A DNA stretch of 50,975 nt from an uncultured Lachnospiraceae bacterium (lineage in GTDB: Bacteria; Bacillota; Clostridia; Lachnospirales; Lachnospiraceae). The notes under the pieces were generated by a model, which saw only the letters and a list, made by a program, of their open reading frames with translations, did no database searches and had not been told where the DNA came from. A program made the position numbers and the translations under genes. The stretch spans positions 1-50,975 of the forward strand of contig CADANF010000023.1 in NCBI GenBank assembly GCA_902789175.1, given 5' to 3'. Position 1 is the first letter of the stretch. Each line of letters begins with the position of its first letter. Shown here piece by piece: positions 26,844-49,395 of the stretch.

Positions 26844-29801
26844 TTATTCGTTTCTTTCTTTTTCAACCACCACAATTCCCATTCCAAGGAGGGCAATGAT
26901 CATAATGGCAATGACTGCCTTAACAGGAGTTGAATCCCCCGTCTGAATTGCCACTGGTTCTGGTTCTGCTTTTGCCACTGTAGCTTCCTTAATCTTCGTG
27001 TCCTTATATGCTACAACAAAGCTTGAAAATCTGTCAGACTCCAGTTCCAATTCTTCCATTGAAACATTTCCGCTGATCTCTTCAACCTCACCATTATGGA
27101 TCCTGAATACCTTATATTCTCTGTTATAACCCTGAGGTATTTCTGTGTTCTTTGCATCAAGACCTATCTTAAATCTGACAGGAGAATCGATCTCATGGAT
27201 CTGTTCTATTTCCAGATGATTAAACTTTTTATATAAAGAAATGTCAAAGGCACAAGAAAAATTAAATCCCTCTCCGGCATTTTTAAGAATGACTTCCTTA
27301 TCAGCACCTGAAAGATCATCTATCTTACTTATCTCAAAATAAACTTCTACACCGGCTCCATCTTTAACCAATTCCTTATCTTCATCAGAAAGAACCATAT
27401 CTAACATTTCATCTGCACTCTTATCAATTTCTGCTTTTGAAACCCCTTCTGACTTCTTAATATTAAATACAGCACCGCTTTCTTCTTTCAATATATGATA
27501 TGTGCCGTTTACAAATGTTACTTCATAATTATCACTTGAAATATCTTCAGCACTGATGATATAGTCTCCAGCCTTTTCGCCTTCTTCTCTTAACAACTTT
27601 AAACTTATAACATCATCTATCTCTTCACCCTCTGCAAGTGGAGTTTCTCCTGAGATCTTAAATGTAAGTTCTTCATCCTCAGCACCAAATATTTTCTCTT
27701 TATCATCAGCAATAAGAGTTACATTTCTCTTTGTTATTTCAAATTCTGCCTCTTCGAAGGTAATCTCATAATTAGGATTATCCTCATTTGTAAGACTACC
27801 CTGGCTAATGATATATTCACCTAATTCTTCTCCCGGCTCTCTTACTAACTCGCCTTTTAATGTTTCATTTTCCGGGATTTCTGAATCGTCAGCAAGTGAA
27901 TAACTTAATGCACAATCTTTTTTCTTATACTCTTTGGTCTTATGATCTGCCTTTATTGATATAGGTCTCTTCTCTATATTGATCTCAAAACTTCCATATG
28001 TAGGATAAAATCCTTCCTTTTGTGCTTTAAAATAAACTATATGCTTTCCTACATTTTTATACTTTATTGGTTCAGGCTTATATAACCCATTCTCATTATC
28101 TGCCCAGGTGACTTTTAATCCCTCAACTTCTGAAACAACTTTTGGGCAGTGATATTTTCCATCATATTTATCGCTGTATCCTTCAACTTCAACATTGCAG
28201 TATCCAAGCATTTTGTATGTTTTTACCTTAACGCCTTCTGAAGATACACTGGCAGGAGCTTCATCTGTCGCTGCCACCCTTGTATATACTGTATATTCCT
28301 TATCTGGATCCAGATTTTCAAATAATACCTTTCCTTCAACCGGACTTATCCAGTTTTTTCCATCAATACTATACTGATTTTCATCCTTGGCATTATTTAT
28401 CTCGATTTTATCTTCACCAGTCTTTATATCTGCCTCTTTTATATTTACAGGTCTCTCAACACCTTTTTCTGTAGGAACGCTCGGATCCTTTGGTGCATCA
28501 GGACGAGCTGCTATAGTTATATCCTGTTTATCTGATACTTCTTTTCTATTCTTATCAACCTGAATGATGCTGATATCTTTACCAATAAAATCATATTCCT
28601 GATCATCCTGGTCCTTACCAATCAAAGGAATACATCCATCCTCATCAGCTGTAATGTAATAATCTGTATCCTTACTACTTATCTTATAGGTGACACCTTC
28701 CTTTAATTCTCTTAAATTTTCATCTCCATACTTAGGCTTTGCTCCCGGAGCATCAAATCTAAGAGACTCTGTCTGAATAAATACTGAAGAATTGACACTT
28801 GTATCGCCTACATCACAGATAGCAAATTTTACCTTTACGGTATCTCCAACGTTAACCTTTTTTTTTGCATTAAACACAAGAGATACACCATTCGTTGCTG
28901 AATTATTAACAGTTACTTTCTTATGATTAAATAAGGAATGCTCTGCACCCGTCACAAGTTTAGTACTACTTCCATTGCTCATTTCAGTACCACTGATACC
29001 TGCCCTTAAATTTGTGATATTCACAGGTACTGTAGTTCCATCTGATCTTGTAATAAGAGCGATATTTTCATAATTCCCACCATTTACACTTACAAAAAGA
29101 CCAAATACATCATTAAAACTCGCAGACTGATTAAATTCTGCCGATGCAAATGCATAATTAAAATTAAGAAGGCTTCCACTAGCTGTCATAGTAAATTCAA
29201 GACTGGAAGTATGTCCCCCATACTTATTAGTAAGTATCTTTGCAAGGTCAGGATCATTTGCTCCGGCAACCTTTCCTGAATTATCAAGAACTATACCACT
29301 TTCAATTCCAATGGCATCCGTTCCACCTGAAAATGTATATACTGTACCTTTTTTCTTACAATCAACAGCTTCTATTCCTTCACCAAGAATAGTATTTACA
29401 AGACTATCCGCAGTCTTAGTATAATCATAATCAGAAGTAATGGAATAACTATCAGAATCCCCTGCATACATAGCCTCCATCCTTACATTAAAAATTTCAG
29501 CCGGGGCCTCTACTATTGCCTCTATTTCATTTATATCCTGCTTTATATCCTCTTCTTTGGAAAAATCTCCTTCTGAAAATACTCCTTTGGAAATATTTTC
29601 TGGAGAATCTTTTTCAGAAAAATAATCCCCATCAAGAGGAGTGTTAACTGTACTGTCAACACACGTAGCTATCTCTTGTCCTCCCTTATCTTCTGCCCCT
29701 TTATCCTCTGCTCTCACATTGAGAGTTCCCGGATAAAGACCTAAAACAAGTGCTGTTACCAATACCTTTGATGTAAGTCCATAAAGACCTTTCCTCATCA
29801 T
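26844..29801 (-). CDS. Large cell-surface protein with choice-of-anchor-L and MBG-like repeats
   Basis: 985 residues from the ATG at 29801 (GGGAGG upstream); the frame is open to 29930 but the upstream part is not signal-like. A signal peptide of about 31 residues ends NVRA before EDKG. Then come a low-complexity acidic region (about 32-95), a domain like choice-of-anchor L (about 105-350: TKTADSLVNTILGEG, FNYAFASAEFN, NDVFGLFVSVNG), a fibronectin-like segment with NQYSIDGKNW and DKEYTVYTRVA (about 450-535), three MBG-type beta repeats (about 540-775, recurring YEITFEEAEFEITKRNV-like ends), and an acidic C-terminal domain. It ends AIQTGD, a hydrophobic helix and KERNE, a sortase-type signal although without the usual LPxTG proline. 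It is monocistronic. Adhesion or matrix binding is likely, but no substrate can be named. Confidence 0.82.
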   Translation of the reverse strand: MMRKGLYGLTSKVLVTALVLGLYPGTLNVRAEDKGAEDKGGQEIATCVDSTVNTPLDGDYFSEKDSPENISKGVFSEGDFSKEEDIKQDINEIEAIVEAPAEIFNVRMEAMYAGDSDSYSITSDYDYTKTADSLVNTILGEGIEAVDCKKKGTVYTFSGGTDAIGIESGIVLDNSGKVAGANDPDLAKILTNKYGGHTSSLEFTMTASGSLLNFNYAFASAEFNQSASFNDVFGLFVSVNGGNYENIALITRSDGTTVPVNITNLRAGISGTEMSNGSSTKLVTGAEHSLFNHKKVTVNNSATNGVSLVFNAKKKVNVGDTVKVKFAICDVGDTSVNSSVFIQTESLRFDAPGAKPKYGDENLRELKEGVTYKISSKDTDYYITADEDGCIPLIGKDQDDQEYDFIGKDISIIQVDKNRKEVSDKQDITIAARPDAPKDPSVPTEKGVERPVNIKEADIKTGEDKIEINNAKDENQYSIDGKNWISPVEGKVLFENLDPDKEYTVYTRVAATDEAPASVSSEGVKVKTYKMLGYCNVEVEGYSDKYDGKYHCPKVVSEVEGLKVTWADNENGLYKPEPIKYKNVGKHIVYFKAQKEGFYPTYGSFEINIEKRPISIKADHKTKEYKKKDCALSYSLADDSEIPENETLKGELVREPGEELGEYIISQGSLTNEDNPNYEITFEEAEFEITKRNVTLIADDKEKIFGAEDEELTFKISGETPLAEGEEIDDVISLKLLREEGEKAGDYIISAEDISSDNYEVTFVNGTYHILKEESGAVFNIKKSEGVSKAEIDKSADEMLDMVLSDEDKELVKDGAGVEVYFEISKIDDLSGADKEVILKNAGEGFNFSCAFDISLYKKFNHLEIEQIHEIDSPVRFKIGLDAKNTEIPQGYNREYKVFRIHNGEVEEISGNVSMEELELESDRFSSFVVAYKDTKIKEATVAKAEPEPVAIQTGDSTPVKAVIAIMIIALLGMGIVVVEKERNE

Positions 29802-30024
29802 TTTATCCTCCCCAGTATTTTTAGGGTGTCGGCTATACTTATTTTTGCCAAAATGTGATCCAGCAAGTATGAATTTAATTGTAACACATGAAAAAATACA
29901 GAATGAACCCCCTGTAATTCCCAAGAACACATATTTTTACCCTTGTTCAGTTTACAACTTAAACAAAATATAATCAATATTTTTTCACATTTTCATCACA
30001 CTTTTCAGCTATCTCTCCTTAAGC

Positions 30025-31131: not shown

Positions 31132-32520
31132 ATGGGTAGATATTTCGGTACAGACGGTTTCCGTGGTGAAGCAAATGTAACACTTACAGCAGATCATGCG
31201 TATAAGGTAGGCCGTTTCCTCGGCTGGTACTACGGCGAGTTAAAGAGACGTAACGGTCTTACAGAAGCTCCAAAGGTTGTTATCGGTAAAGACACAAGAC
31301 GTTCAAGCTATATGTTTGAATATGCACTTGTTGGAGGTCTTGTTGCATCCGGTGCCAACGCTTATATGCTTCATGTTACAACAACTCCATCTGTCGCTTA
31401 TGTTACAAGAATAGACGGATTTGACTGCGGTATCATGATCTCAGCCAGCCACAACCCATATTATGATAATGGAATCAAGCTTATCAATGGTCAGGGCGAA
31501 AAGATGGATGAGGACACCATCGCTCTTATCGAAGACTTCCTTGATGGAAAGCTTCACATCTTTGACGAAGATATAACAACTCTTCCATACGCAACACGCG
31601 ATAAGATCGGTTATACAGTAGACTATGTTTCAGGTCGTAACCGCTATATCGGTTACCTTATCTCACTTGGCCTTTATTCATTTAAAGGTCTTAAGGTTGC
31701 TCTCGACTGTGCAAATGGTTCTTCATGGAACATTGCAAAATCGGTTTTTGATGCACTTGGAGCTACAACTAAGGTTATCAATGCTAATCCAAATGGAACC
31801 AATATCAATAAGGATGCCGGTTCAACTCATATAGAAAACCTCCAGAAATACGTTCTTGAAAATCATATGGATGTAGGTTTTGCTTATGACGGTGACGCTG
31901 ACCGCTGCCTTGCTGTTGATGATAAGGGAAATGTTATAACCGGTGACCATATCCTCTATGTATGTGGCAAGCACTTAAAGGAACAGGGCGAATTAGTAGG
32001 TAACACTGTTGTTACTACAGTAATGTCTAACTTCGGTCTTTATAAAGCATTTGACGCCTATGGTATCGACTATGCAAAGACTGCTGTTGGAGATAAATAT
32101 GTATATGAATATATGTCACAGAATGGCTGCCGTATAGGTGGCGAACAGTCTGGACATATCATTTTCTCAAAATATGCCACAACTGGTGACGGAATCCTTA
32201 CTTCTCTTAAGGTTATGGAAGTAATGCTTGCTACAAAGAAGAAGCTTTCAGAACTTACAGAAGGCTTTACAGTATATCCTCAGGTACTTCAGAACGTAAG
32301 AGTTACTGATAAAAAGGCAGCTCAGGATGATCCTGCAGTACAGGAAATTGTTAAAGCTGTTACCGAAGAACTTGGTGATACAGGCCGTATCCTTGTAAGA
32401 GAATCAGGAACAGAACCTGTTGTCCGCGTAATGGTGGAAGCTTCATCAGAAGAGATCTGCCAGAAGCATGTAGACAGCGTGGTAAATGTGATCAAAGAAA
32501 AAGGTTACACGGTTGAGTAA
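31132..32520 (+). CDS. glmM: Phosphoglucosamine mutase
   Basis: 462 residues of the alpha-D-phosphohexomutase superfamily. The start MGRYFGTDGFRGEAN is diagnostic of GlmM, which converts glucosamine 6-phosphate to glucosamine 1-phosphate for UDP-GlcNAc and so for peptidoglycan. Catalytic Ser106 lies in ISASHNPYYDNGIK, the metal loop is YDGDADRC, the sugar-specificity loop is GGEQSGH, and the phosphate loop is RESGTEPVVRV. AAGGAG lies upstream of the ATG. A large hairpin element begins five bases after its stop. Confidence 0.96.
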   Translation: MGRYFGTDGFRGEANVTLTADHAYKVGRFLGWYYGELKRRNGLTEAPKVVIGKDTRRSSYMFEYALVGGLVASGANAYMLHVTTTPSVAYVTRIDGFDCGIMISASHNPYYDNGIKLINGQGEKMDEDTIALIEDFLDGKLHIFDEDITTLPYATRDKIGYTVDYVSGRNRYIGYLISLGLYSFKGLKVALDCANGSSWNIAKSVFDALGATTKVINANPNGTNINKDAGSTHIENLQKYVLENHMDVGFAYDGDADRCLAVDDKGNVITGDHILYVCGKHLKEQGELVGNTVVTTVMSNFGLYKAFDAYGIDYAKTAVGDKYVYEYMSQNGCRIGGEQSGHIIFSKYATTGDGILTSLKVMEVMLATKKKLSELTEGFTVYPQVLQNVRVTDKKAAQDDPAVQEIVKAVTEELGDTGRILVRESGTEPVVRVMVEASSEEICQKHVDSVVNVIKEKGYTVE

Positions 32521-32524
32521 CCAG

Positions 32525-32612
32525 CCAAAATATAATAAAGGACGAAAAAAATCCCACCAAAGGGCATATTTAGCCCGCTGGTGGGATTGATTTTTTGTCC
32601 ATTATATTTTGG
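32525..32612 (+). repeat. Long hairpin element, copy 1 (candidate structured RNA or dispersed element)
   Basis: An 88-base hairpin fills the gap between the convergent glmM and trmL genes, 5 and 8 bases from their stops. Stem CCAAAATATAAT (32525-32536) with its exact complement (32601-32612); GGAC/GTCC; AATCCCACC/GGTGGGATT; then a conserved tip at 32557-32581: CC, AAA, GGGC, loop ATATTTA, GCCC, GCT, GG. The tip recurs at 48890-48914 in reverse orientation with one mismatch in 25, while the outer stems differ. It may end both transcripts, but it lacks a flush T tract on either side and the conserved tip is not needed for termination. Confidence 0.75.
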
Positions 32613-32620
32613 CGTCCGTT

Positions 32621-33112
32621 CTACCAATGAAGGTGATGCAGCTCCCCCTCATCCTCCATTCCTTTAAAATCCAGCTGTCTTAATGCTTCATAAAGAATTA
32701 TCGAAACCGAATTAGAAAGATTAAGTGATCTTTCTTCAGGAAGCATTGGAATTCTGATACACTGATCCGGATGCTTTATAAGGATTTCTTCCGGAATTCC
32801 TGCGCTTTCTTTTCCGAACATGATGTAGTCTCCATCATGAAATTCCACATCTGTATATCTATGCTTTGCTTTTGTAGTTGCATAAAAAATTCTCGCATCA
32901 GGATTCTTTGTAAGGAAATCATCATAATCTGTATAAGTAGTTACATCGAGTCTTGGCCAGTAATCAAGGCCAGCTCTCTTTAACATTTTCTCTGAAAGAT
33001 TAAATCCCATGGGCTCTATAAGATGAAGTCTTGCGCCGGTTATCACACAGCTTCTTCCTATATTTCCTGTATTTGCCGGCATCTCCGGCTCATGAAGTAC
33101 TATATTTAACAT
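32621..33112 (-). CDS. trmL: tRNA (cytidine(34)-2'-O)-methyltransferase TrmL
   Basis: 163 residues, a minimal SPOUT methyltransferase. The three trefoil-knot motifs are visible: LHEPEMPANTGNIGR near the start, MFGKESAGIPEEI near residue 100, and LNLSNSVSIILYEALRQL near 130-147. It methylates the wobble base of tRNA-Leu isoacceptors. It ends the minus-strand run that begins at murJ, 18 bases after the preceding gene; the hairpin element 32525-32612 lies directly after its stop and may end transcription. Confidence 0.94.
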   Translation of the reverse strand: MLNIVLHEPEMPANTGNIGRSCVITGARLHLIEPMGFNLSEKMLKRAGLDYWPRLDVTTYTDYDDFLTKNPDARIFYATTKAKHRYTDVEFHDGDYIMFGKESAGIPEEILIKHPDQCIRIPMLPEERSLNLSNSVSIILYEALRQLDFKGMEDEGELHHLHW

Positions 33113-41865: not shown

Positions 41866-41907
41866 AATAAAAGCTCTCCCTTAAAAAATATATTGATTAA
41901 TAGAAAA

Positions 41908-41995
41908 CGGAGACGGAGGGATTCGAACCCTCGTGCCGGCAAGCCGGCAAACTGATTTCGAGTCAGCCCCGTTATGACCGCTTCGATACGTCTCC
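41908..41995 (-). tRNA. tRNA-Ser(CGA)
   Basis: 88-base gene. Acceptor stem GGAGACG/CGTCTCC, discriminator G, anticodon loop CTCGAAA giving anticodon CGA (reads UCG), long variable arm with a GCCGGC hairpin typical of class II serine tRNAs, and the T loop GGTTCGAATCC. The 3' CCA is not encoded (TTTTC follows), so it must be added by the cell. Confidence 0.96.
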
Positions 41996-42324
41996 ATAAA
42001 CCTTGTATGAATATAAGCCCGAAACAAACAATTTCTATTACTTTTTATTCTATTTCCCAAAAAAGGTTATACGCATACAGTTAAGAATTATACATTAAAG
42101 TAATATTGGCATCAATACCCCATTTTGACTATTTTTTCTTATATTCAGTCTAAATTTAAGTTAAATTTTCTCTAATACGTGAATTCTTTTTAATATTTTT
42201 TGTTTTCATGTTCCATAAGACAAAAAAAAGATTCACAATTCTTATTTTGACTTTTTTAATAGGATAGAATAAGATATGCCTCGGATATATTAACTATCTT
42301 ATTTCTTATTTTTTGGAGTTTATC
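41996..42324. other. AT-rich gap of about 330 bases between the tRNA and the CmpB-like gene
   Basis: No open frame worth calling on either strand. It holds the promoter of the plus-strand gene near its right end (42247-42275) and presumably the tRNA promoter near its left end, where TATATT on the minus strand could be a -10 box. I see no riboswitch or repeat in it. Confidence 0.6.
42247..42275 (+). promoter_or_regulatory. Promoter of the CmpB-like and ABC-F genes
   Basis: -35 TTGACT (42247-42252), 17-base spacer, -10 TAAGAT (42270-42275), about 50 bases upstream of the ATG. Confidence 0.55.
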
Positions 42325-47987: not shown

Positions 47988-48827
47988 ATGAATAATCCAG
48001 CCACTATACTGGAAGCTAGTATTAACGGATCCGTAAGAAAGACCAATCTCACATTCTTTAAAGCTGTTATACTAAGCTTTATGTCAGGCACATTTATTGC
48101 CTTCGGCGCTGCTGCCGCCAATTATGCAGCTCACGATATCTCTAATGCAGGAGTAGCAAAGCTTGTTACAGGTTTTGTATTTCCAGTAGGTCTAATGCTC
48201 GTTATCGTTATGGGAGCAGAGCTCTTCACAGGTAACTGTCTGATTCTGATGGCAGTTCTCGATAAAAAGGTCAGCGTATTAAAATTATTAAAAAACCTTT
48301 TAATTGTTTATTTCGGTAACTTTTTCGGTTGCATTTTAATTGCTCATCTTACTGATATTGCTGGTCAGTGGAACCAGAACAGAGATTTAATTGGTGCTTA
48401 TACTATTAAAGTTGCCTACGGTAAAGTAAGCATGACATTTGGACAGGCTTTTGCATCAGGTATCCTTTGTAATATGTTGGTATGCCTTGCTGTTCTCTGT
48501 GCCACATCCTCAAAAGATGTTGCCGGTAAAGCAACCATGATCTTCTTTATCATCATGGCCTTTGTTCTTTCAGGATATGAGCATTCAGTCGCTAACATGT
48601 ATTATCTTTTTGCAGGAAGAATCGCTTCAAGAGATAACACATTCATGTCTGTTGCCGCAGATACCTACGGTCTTGTATCAGATAAAGTTATCGAGGCTTT
48701 AAGGCTTAAGAATCTTATCGTTAAGAATCTTATTCCGGTTACTCTTGGAAACCTCGTAGGCGGTATGTTATTAACATCACTGCCATTCTGGTTCGTATAT
48801 AGAAAAAAAGAGCAGAGTGAGAAATAG
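47988..48827 (+). CDS. focA: Formate/nitrite transporter (FNT) family channel
   Basis: 279 residues, six membrane helices. FNT motifs: GFVFPVGLMLVIVMGAELFTGN (helix 2 and loop), SGILCNMLVCLAVLCA, and GYEHSVANMYYL with the central pore histidine. In a fermenting anaerobe the likely cargo is formate, although nitrite or hydrosulfide variants share the fold. Monocistronic, followed by a long hairpin element with a plus-strand T tract. Confidence 0.9.
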   Translation: MNNPATILEASINGSVRKTNLTFFKAVILSFMSGTFIAFGAAAANYAAHDISNAGVAKLVTGFVFPVGLMLVIVMGAELFTGNCLILMAVLDKKVSVLKLLKNLLIVYFGNFFGCILIAHLTDIAGQWNQNRDLIGAYTIKVAYGKVSMTFGQAFASGILCNMLVCLAVLCATSSKDVAGKATMIFFIIMAFVLSGYEHSVANMYYLFAGRIASRDNTFMSVAADTYGLVSDKVIEALRLKNLIVKNLIPVTLGNLVGGMLLTSLPFWFVYRKKEQSEK

Positions 48828-48857
48828 ACTGGCGAACGAATAAACTAATAAACGAAC

Positions 48858-48948
48858 GCCCCGATAGTATTGATGCTCAAGTAATCGCGCCAGCGGGCCA
48901 AATATGCCCTTTGGCACGATTCTTTCGCATCTTTTATACTATCGGGGC
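48858..48948 (-). repeat. Long hairpin element, copy 2 (candidate structured RNA or dispersed element)
   Basis: A 91-base hairpin between the convergent focA and the small membrane protein gene at 49003. Outer stem GCCCCGATAGTAT (48858-48870) with its exact complement (48936-48948), then GATGC/GCATC, AATCG/CGATT, and the conserved tip at 48890-48914. Read on the minus strand, the tip is GCC, AAA, GGGC, loop ATATTTG, GCCC, GCT, GGC, the same as copy 1 on the plus strand except for one base. The closing pairs next to the AAA/GCT internal loop differ from copy 1 but remain paired. On the plus strand a T tract follows, so it can also terminate focA. Confidence 0.75.
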
Positions 48949-49002
48949 TGTTTGTTTTTTCTTTACAGCACTTGAATAATGTTTTTCATTGGATTTAAAT
49001 AA

Positions 49003-49395
49003 TTACTTTTTTTCTAAATCCGCAAAATATATTCGATAAACTGTATCAATACCTTTAGGATTACTTTTAAATATTACTTTTATATAATCTTTTTCTTCAA
49101 TTAATTCATAATAGTCATCTGTCATTCTAACATTGTAATCTAAATTCTGTTCAAATTCATATTTGATATCGCCTTGTTTATCCTTAATCGTTATACTTAC
49201 ACTTTTATGTACATTATTTTTGGGAAAAGTAGCCTCTATCTTATATTTTCCATCATCAATTTCCTTCTCAAACCATATAGTTCTTGAGCTATATTCTTTT
49301 ATAGCCGATGCAATAAATACTATTAATATCAAAACAATAATCGTAAAAAAACTCCAAAGATTCACTAAAAGATTATACTTTTTTTCTTCCTTCAT
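49003..49395 (-). CDS. Small membrane-anchored protein, paralogue of the gene before it
   Basis: 130 residues: short cytosolic tail, one membrane helix (about 13-32, LWSFFTIIVLILIVFIASA), then about 95 residues outside, probably beta-rich. It shares its plan and several positions with the 126-residue product encoded at 49402: F-x-E-x2-I-x-DGK, a V-x-I-x-I strand, an L/M-T-x2-x-Y pattern, and an EK-x-YIKV-like strand followed by Y-x-F/Y near the end. It starts six bases after the stop of that gene and ends the three-gene unit. Function unknown. Confidence 0.75.
   Translation of the reverse strand: MKEEKKYNLLVNLWSFFTIIVLILIVFIASAIKEYSSRTIWFEKEIDDGKYKIEATFPKNNVHKSVSITIKDKQGDIKYEFEQNLDYNVRMTDDYYELIEEKDYIKVIFKSNPKGIDTVYRIYFADLEKK

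Follow-up and report, generated by a model that had tools for sequence, protein, structure and literature searches.

A palindromic repeat family resembling the REPs of E. coli in a few related Lachnospiraceae

Introduction

Repetitive extragenic palindromes (REPs) are hairpins best known from Proteobacteria, and the features by which REP enzymes recognise them are still under study. They are reported to lie between convergent or co-directional genes and rarely between divergent ones, and CGTC-tagged REPs are described as palindromic without a dedicated adjacent transposase (PMC3733652). The REPs of E. coli carry conserved AA-GC mismatches that, as reported for TnpA-REP, must remain unpaired; the unpaired state counts rather than the mismatch letters, and other unpaired letters work as well (PMC8266576). 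The same report assigns the loop a merely non-specific role for the E. coli enzyme and mentions a TTTA loop that is read in other REPs (PMC8266576).

A sequence-only reading of a 50,975-nucleotide stretch of DNA from an uncultured Lachnospiraceae bacterium (contig CADANF010000023.1; the whole stretch is referred to as the window) had pointed out two long hairpins with a common tip and proposed them as a new structured RNA or hairpin element. We found that both are members of a palindromic repeat family, here named family 1, with dozens of copies in a few related Lachnospiraceae. Searches of the literature on REPs, RAYT, terminator loops, Firmicutes/Clostridia/Lachnospiraceae and UBA3772 gave no description of this family among the matches listed, as far as titles and the starts of abstracts go. 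The main text of PMC3733652 contains neither Firmicutes nor Clostridi, and that of PMC12306157 contains Firmicutes, Clostridi and Lachnospir zero times and Bacillota once, in a table heading over three species.

Results

Both hairpins (positions 32525-32612 and 48858-48948) were confirmed on the sequence, and the family of which they are members turned out to be much larger. They share a 25-mer, CCAAAGGGCATATTT[A/G]GCCCGCTGG, which runs from 32557 to 32581 on the plus strand and from 48890 to 48914 on the minus strand and was correctly described as having one mismatch and opposite orientation. The stems beside it differ and are still paired, with CCACC/GGTGG in copy 1 and GTGCC/GGCGC, including one G·T wobble, in copy 2. 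The adjoining 3 × 3 loop (AAA/GCT) had been drawn too large: since the initial A of AAA and the final T of GCT form a pair, it consists of a closing A-T pair and an unpaired 2 × 2 AA/GC mismatch, and this mismatch is indeed kept. The hairpins do lie at the positions above, but the whole units are larger, comprising 32521-32620 for copy 1 and about 133 bp near 48843-48975 for copy 2.

Copy 1 forms one long plus-strand hairpin from CCAGCC to GGCGTCC (32521..32620) and occupies all the sequence between the stop codon of glmM (31132..32520, plus strand; TIGR01455, 534.1 bits, above the cut-off) and that of a convergent gene for a TrmL-like tRNA methyltransferase (32621..33112, minus strand; TIGR00185, 188.9 bits, just under the cut-off of 190.6). 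Its tip (32559..32579, plus strand) comprises the A-T pair, the AA/GC mismatch, a GGGC/GCCC upper stem and the loop ATATTTA. Orthologues of copy 1 were found at the same place in loci L018 and L041 and, inverted, in L094. The repeat unit of copy 2, of a CGTGCC subtype, was delimited on the minus strand by repeat matches (48843..48975, ends approximate), the best of which, in genomes G065 and G082, span 48842-48975 at 90-96% identity; its tip, with the loop ATATTTG, occupies 48892..48912 (minus strand). Upstream lies a gene for a formate/nitrite transporter (47988..48827, plus strand; TIGR00790, 226.7 bits, just under the cut-off of 232.3) and on the other side a convergent ORF without family match (49003..49395, minus strand), so that both copies occupy convergent gaps, as had been stated. 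The window also contains an ORF of 1028 aa with a choice-of-anchor L domain (26844-29930; NF038133). At the gathering score, the only Rfam match in the window was a tRNA, namely tRNA-Ser (CGA) at 41907-41996. Five loci searched against Rfam at E ≤ 1 gave nothing beyond microRNA and CsrB scores that are implausible and do not reach gathering.

The tip, AAAGGRCATNNTTRGYCCGCT, marks family 1, which has about 45 places in the genome of the window (2.75 Mb in 78 contigs). With up to 3 mismatches allowed, the 21-base tip was located 12 times in this genome, compared with none for the pattern read backwards. When one genome per species was scanned for the exact tip, three Lachnospiraceae MAGs (UBA3772, Eubacterium sp. 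RGIG507 from dairy-cattle duodenum, and SRR12081298_bin.41) accounted for 39 of the 43 stretches returned. Viral contigs gave no exact match. The four lone matches (L067, L068, L071 and L073, from Accumulibacter, Tepidanaerobacter, Intestinimonas and a Bacteroidetes MAG) lack flanks that pair continuously and were dismissed as chance.

A covariance model built from tip-selected copies identified four carriers among the 61 genomes of the genus. At E ≤ 0.1 it gave 46 matches in G000, 50 in G018, 51 in G065 and 14 in G082, which are not copy numbers because some hairpins match on both strands. None of the remaining 57 genomes had a match below E 0.01 under stricter filters, which lose weak matches; 53 of them had none at E ≤ 0.1 and four had one or two marginal ones. 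Among these marginal matches (G023, G067, G073 and G084; E 0.01-0.09), those that were aligned, i.e. those of G073 and G084 and one of the two in G023, proved to be plain hairpins with the exception of L088. The latter (L088:1501-1555, from the non-carrier G084) shows a look-alike tip, AAAGGACATAATTATCCTCT, at 22.9 bits and is a possible remote relative. Plain hairpins from G002 stretches and from E. coli are also matched by the model, at 16-22 bits. A closer model search of the genome of the window yielded 57 rows at E ≤ 1 and 45 distinct places at E ≤ 2.8e-5, two of which, at the ends of contigs C5 and C44, have the same outer flank. The recurrence of the tip is thus not a matter of chance, given the 12 places against none for the backwards pattern and the lack of model matches (E < 0.01) in the 57 non-carriers. 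The sequence-only reading had asked for a covariance search and a comparison with Rfam and had been prepared to give up its proposal if no further copies appeared; with 45 distinct places in the same genome and three further carrier genomes, that case clearly does not arise, and Rfam contributed nothing credible.

With regard to glmM, G018 and G082 are 98-99% and G065 is 90% identical to G000, the next genome following at 77%, and the carriers are mutual nearest relatives among the 58 of 61 genomes with a glmM match. Since the carriers cluster in this way and the non-carriers are without match, family 1 probably arose or expanded in one clade. Several contigs (L114, L125, L126 and G018:C67) stop at a copy or close to one. 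Assemblies may therefore break at family-1 repeats and the counts of copies may be too low.

The copies were sorted by eye into sub-families. The short type, with stems like ACACCTCC/GGAGGTGT and A- and T-runs to either side, is terminator-like. The long type reads CCAGCC-AAAATATAATA-GACGC-GA-AAG-AATCCCTCC-tip-GGAGGGATT-G-CTT-GA-GCGTC-TATTATATTTT-GGCGTCCGTTCG and also occurs as a CCCGATAG variant. Six copies form a C type, CAAAAAAGGAAAGGCACG-AAAGCAC..., and a further variant carries the tip AAAGGGCTTATTTTACCGCT. Judged by eye, such runs are missing from most long copies, and short and C-type copies have the tip in common but not the unit ends. GA/GA mismatches separate the helices in many long copies. 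Their outer helices covary, 23 of 31 predicted pairs showing a double change in 49 of the 54 listed long copies (L128, L129, L170, L176 and L051 were dropped as odd). Shared outer stems had been named in advance as a sign of plain duplication of a terminator. Within sub-families they are indeed shared, so that copies resemble one another partly in the way any dispersed repeats do; to that extent the objection applies. Other structured insertions resembling another repeat family were noticed at about L022:915-1250, L094:1000-1300 and L051:6800-7200, the one in L022 apparently within the tip of a long hairpin.

Pairing was analyzed in an alignment of 53 copies and 57 columns, from which L033 (broken outer stem) and the four lone matches were left out. 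The copies had been chosen by the tip pattern with a few changes allowed, so that the tip is constant here partly by construction, whereas the stems played no part in selection. Of the 742 cells, 98.2% were paired. Double-change cells numbered 134, compared with 35.8 in shuffles and 3-32 when the alignment was slid; kinship of the copies alone can beat shuffles without any structure, and the slid controls protect against that. Further pair types (25 vs. 20.0 in shuffles) and the covariation score (0.557 vs. 0.186) were raised as well, while the number of pairs with a double change was unremarkable (10 vs. 8.7, with 77 of 500 shuffles reaching 10). Tip pair 24-34 alternates between G-C and A-U, and the upper stem varies too, as a subtype found by the model carries GCAC/GTGC. 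The kept tip and the compensating stems that had been claimed from two copies thus hold for a true hairpin family, as judged by the covariance model and the stem covariation. On the tip strand, G·T wobbles outnumber A·C (22 vs. 6 of 742 cells), which suggests that the tip strand is the likely folding strand; 13 of the 22 stand at one position, and 9 of those 13 come from one subtype. The excess fits RNA as well as single-stranded DNA and does not separate them. Minimum-energy folds of the 45 copies in the genome of the window placed exactly AA/GC under the upper stem in 31 cases. Nine of the other 14 show a similar unpaired step (three AA/GA, two AAG/GC, and one each of AAA/GC, TA/GC, TAA/CGC and AA/AA), three fold otherwise, and two, L174 and L176, have lost the mismatch and are now near-perfect palindromes.

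Genomic context was evaluated with a crude ORF caller for 44 of these 45 copies (L033 left out). Both neighbours were called for 38 copies: 21 lie between convergent ORFs, nine between ORFs that are both on the tip strand, eight between ORFs that are both on the other strand and none between divergent ones, indicating that the copies mark gene 3' ends and prefer no strand. In six of the 44 one neighbour was uncalled, and four of the 44 were flagged within called ORFs that are probably spurious. At the orthologous glmM site the element has one orientation in three species and is inverted as a whole in G082. For 16 orthologous site pairs, which are not independent and were picked because a copy is present on both sides, lower-stem bases agree in 227 of 288 cases and tip ends in 273 of 288, with 23 double compensating changes against 15 single ones. 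Contrary to simple tip conservation, two orthologous pairs have identical stems and different tips. At L085/L020 the stems differ strongly though the flanks are 95-98% similar.

Some sites appear composite. In L054 (G065), a new unit begins right after the AAAGG of an older one, which is complete in G000 (L171); in L082, a long unit adjoins half of a short-type hairpin; and at several sites 5' and 3' half-units are repeated around one full copy. The transporter site of copy 2 lacks the element in G065 and holds a different hairpin and the remnant GAACGGACGCC instead. No clean empty site with a target duplication was found among the orthologous loci. Recent movement gets no support, because many copies occupy the same places in several species; site conservation is at the same time over-estimated, most loci having been selected for a copy.

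Matches to PF01797 occur in 36 of the 61 genus genomes. The carriers have one RAYT-type protein in common, which measures 261 aa in three of them; in G082 it is a fragment of 132 aa located at the end of a contig. The protein of G000 is 97% identical to that of G065, 89% to that of G018 and 32-38% to those of relatives, and its HVH and YIHNNP motifs are intact. Its C-terminal stretch looks HTH-like by eye, while Pfam gives Y1_Tnp only. Four of the five nearest non-carriers by glmM (G068, G016, G080 and G004) are without PF01797; the fifth, G064, has five matches. E. coli RayT gave no match in the four carrier genomes, an empty result obtained without a control; compared directly with the Lachnospiraceae RAYT it is 22% identical over 116 aa. 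A PDB sequence search with the RAYT gave no match.

The RAYT gene lies at one conserved place. It was rejected as a direct neighbour of family 1: none of the four RAYT loci (L149-L152, of which L152 ends with the contig) contains a credible copy, the best model match having E 0.52 and no tip being present at up to 4 substitutions. A hairpin of a second family is located about 50-90 bp downstream of the gene. The RAYT-type protein is a candidate only for the enzyme that moved family 1, and its co-occurrence with the family amounts to one phylogenetic event and by itself proves nothing. The second family (GTTAACATAAAAATGGACC-ACTGCCCCCGGGACTAT-GGTCCATTTTTATGTTAAC, loop GCCCCCGGGAC; e.g., L224:18383-18439 on G000:C38, L223, L225 and L233) was searched in eight genomes by its tip at up to 3 mismatches, with 64, 63, 57 and 20 matches in the four carriers and none in the four others. 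It is dense on some contigs, with a hairpin about every 2 kb. G002 has palindromes of its own, GGGACGGTTCTGG...ATCAGAACCGTCCC (L240, L245-L247 and L252), a 9-mer being common to 8 of 35 hairpins in 300 kb; they are reminiscent of the inverted repeats, GGGGWSAS, that belong to TIRYT genes.

Discussion

The location at gene 3' ends, the occurrence in both orientations and the inversion of one whole element are more in keeping with a REP-like extragenic palindrome than with a strand-specific RNA. We read the two hairpins as copies of a lineage-specific repetitive extragenic palindrome of REP-like kind, with a probability of about 0.63. The structured RNA originally proposed, taken here as a 3'-UTR hairpin with a kept tip that binds an RNA-binding protein and sets the fate of the mRNA 3' end, is possible but less likely, and on its own merits doubtful. 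Two features on which the proposal was built, the kept tip with its unpaired bases and the covarying stems, have stood, and the position at gene 3' ends, the GA/GA mismatches between helices of many long copies and the G·T excess on the tip strand would suit it as well; but most of that excess sits at a single position and largely in one subtype, 8 of the 17 co-directional copies would be transcribed as the opposite strand, an orthologous copy is inverted, no credible Rfam match exists, and the anatomy matches that of E. coli REP DNA.

Two further readings were weighed. The nested and iterated sites would be expected of a MITE of some other (non-HUH) transposon, or of a site-specific recombination site, that targets existing hairpins: long units measure about 130 bp at up to 95-96% identity, new units begin just within older tips (L054 vs. 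L171), L082 joins half a short-type hairpin to a long unit, and half-units recur around full copies. We consider this improbable, as neither a target-site duplication nor a clean empty site was found and the unit ends, unlike the tip, appear not to be shared by short and C-type copies. Lower still we rank ordinary bidirectional terminators with arms kept complementary by template-switch correction and tips spread by gene conversion. Such a process could have turned L174 and L176 into near-perfect palindromes and produced both the divergent stems between similar flanks at L085/L020 and the two site pairs with the same stems and different tips, and short-type copies do have A- and T-runs; correction would, however, erase the AA/GC step that 31 of 45 folds retain exactly, most long copies appear to lack a T-run, and none of the 57 relatives has a match below E 0.01.

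The REP-like reading supposes a TnpA-REP-like HUH/Y1 endonuclease that recognises, or once recognised, the tip as a folded single strand and that made the copies. The marks for recognition would be the unpaired AA/GC step and perhaps the loop, the stem sequence being free provided that pairing holds. Resident copies, above all those of the short type, may now serve secondarily as two-way transcription terminators or 3'-end stabilisers, a role that would explain their retention at gene ends. We also offer a more specific scenario, as a conjecture with the odds against it: a REP system of E. coli layout may have arisen or been acquired in this Lachnospiraceae clade, with a mismatched tip fixed in sequence, new copies landing on resident tips, units nesting and stems turning over within species divergence, all driven by the single RAYT-type HUH protein of the clade despite the flanking of its gene by the second family. 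If a distant lineage keeps AA/GC, varies the stem and does without GTAG, this would help to tell the required marks of a REP from accidental ones. Moreover, strong covariation beside genes need not imply a regulatory RNA.

Among described systems, TIRYT/TIRtron elements combine a Y1 transposase bearing an HTH with flanking inverted repeats. The four carriers also encode a Y1 protein, but the hairpin beside its gene belongs to the second family with its GCCCCCGGGAC loop and not to family 1. CGTC-tagged REPs are, like family 1, palindromic and have no dedicated transposase alongside; the stems and loops differ, and the CGTC of long family-1 copies stands at the outer 3' end rather than at the foot of the core hairpin.

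The layout was compared directly by a scan for a lower stem of at least 6 bp, AA, a 4-bp G+C-rich upper stem, a loop of 3-12 nt, GC and the returning stem, with the letters AA/GC fixed. In 49 kb of E. coli K-12 it found eight places, of which six carry GTAG in the foot; a further one lies beside rayT. At the eight places, upper stems were GGCG, GACG or GCCG, and loops were TTTA (2/8), TTCA (1/8), TTTT (1/8) or other (4/8). In 368 kb of G000, from stretches chosen mostly for the second family, it found four places, all family 1 (the model finds eight strong copies there), and 400 kb of G002 and G005, relatives without family 1, gave one.

Judged broadly, family 1 looks like a REP, being a short palindrome with tens of intergenic copies, none of which, among the 38 with both neighbours called, lies between divergent genes. 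Of the features of the E. coli type, the AA-GC mismatch under a short upper stem is present and the unpaired GTAG foot is absent: in the alignments, family 1 has no GTAG at the 5' foot, which reads (G)AAAG...CTTGA. Nor is the RAYT gene flanked by family 1 in the four loci read, as it would be in a REPtron. We have thus not filed family 1 as a GTAG REP or a REPtron, because the tag and the flanking transposase are both absent. It further departs from E. coli REPs in its usually 7-nt loop, a lower-stem sequence that is not kept, long outer helices in many copies, and its occurrence in a different phylum. Shared mismatch letters need not mean shared recognition, since the E. coli enzyme needs the unpaired state and not the letters, and the likeness may be convergence. 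The likeness to the E. coli REP (GTAG-3 family of Di Nocera et al.; group 2 REPtron) nevertheless comprises a lower stem of at least 7 bp, an unpaired 2 × 2 step with AA on the 5' side and GC on the 3' side, a 4-bp upper stem beginning with G, and many intergenic copies at gene 3' ends; some TTTA loops also equal the loop end of family 1, while half of the E. coli loops are unlike it. Because the two agree in the mismatch and its side, in the length of the upper stem and in some of the loops, while the GTAG and the lower-stem sequence are not shared, family 1 is best described as REP-like.
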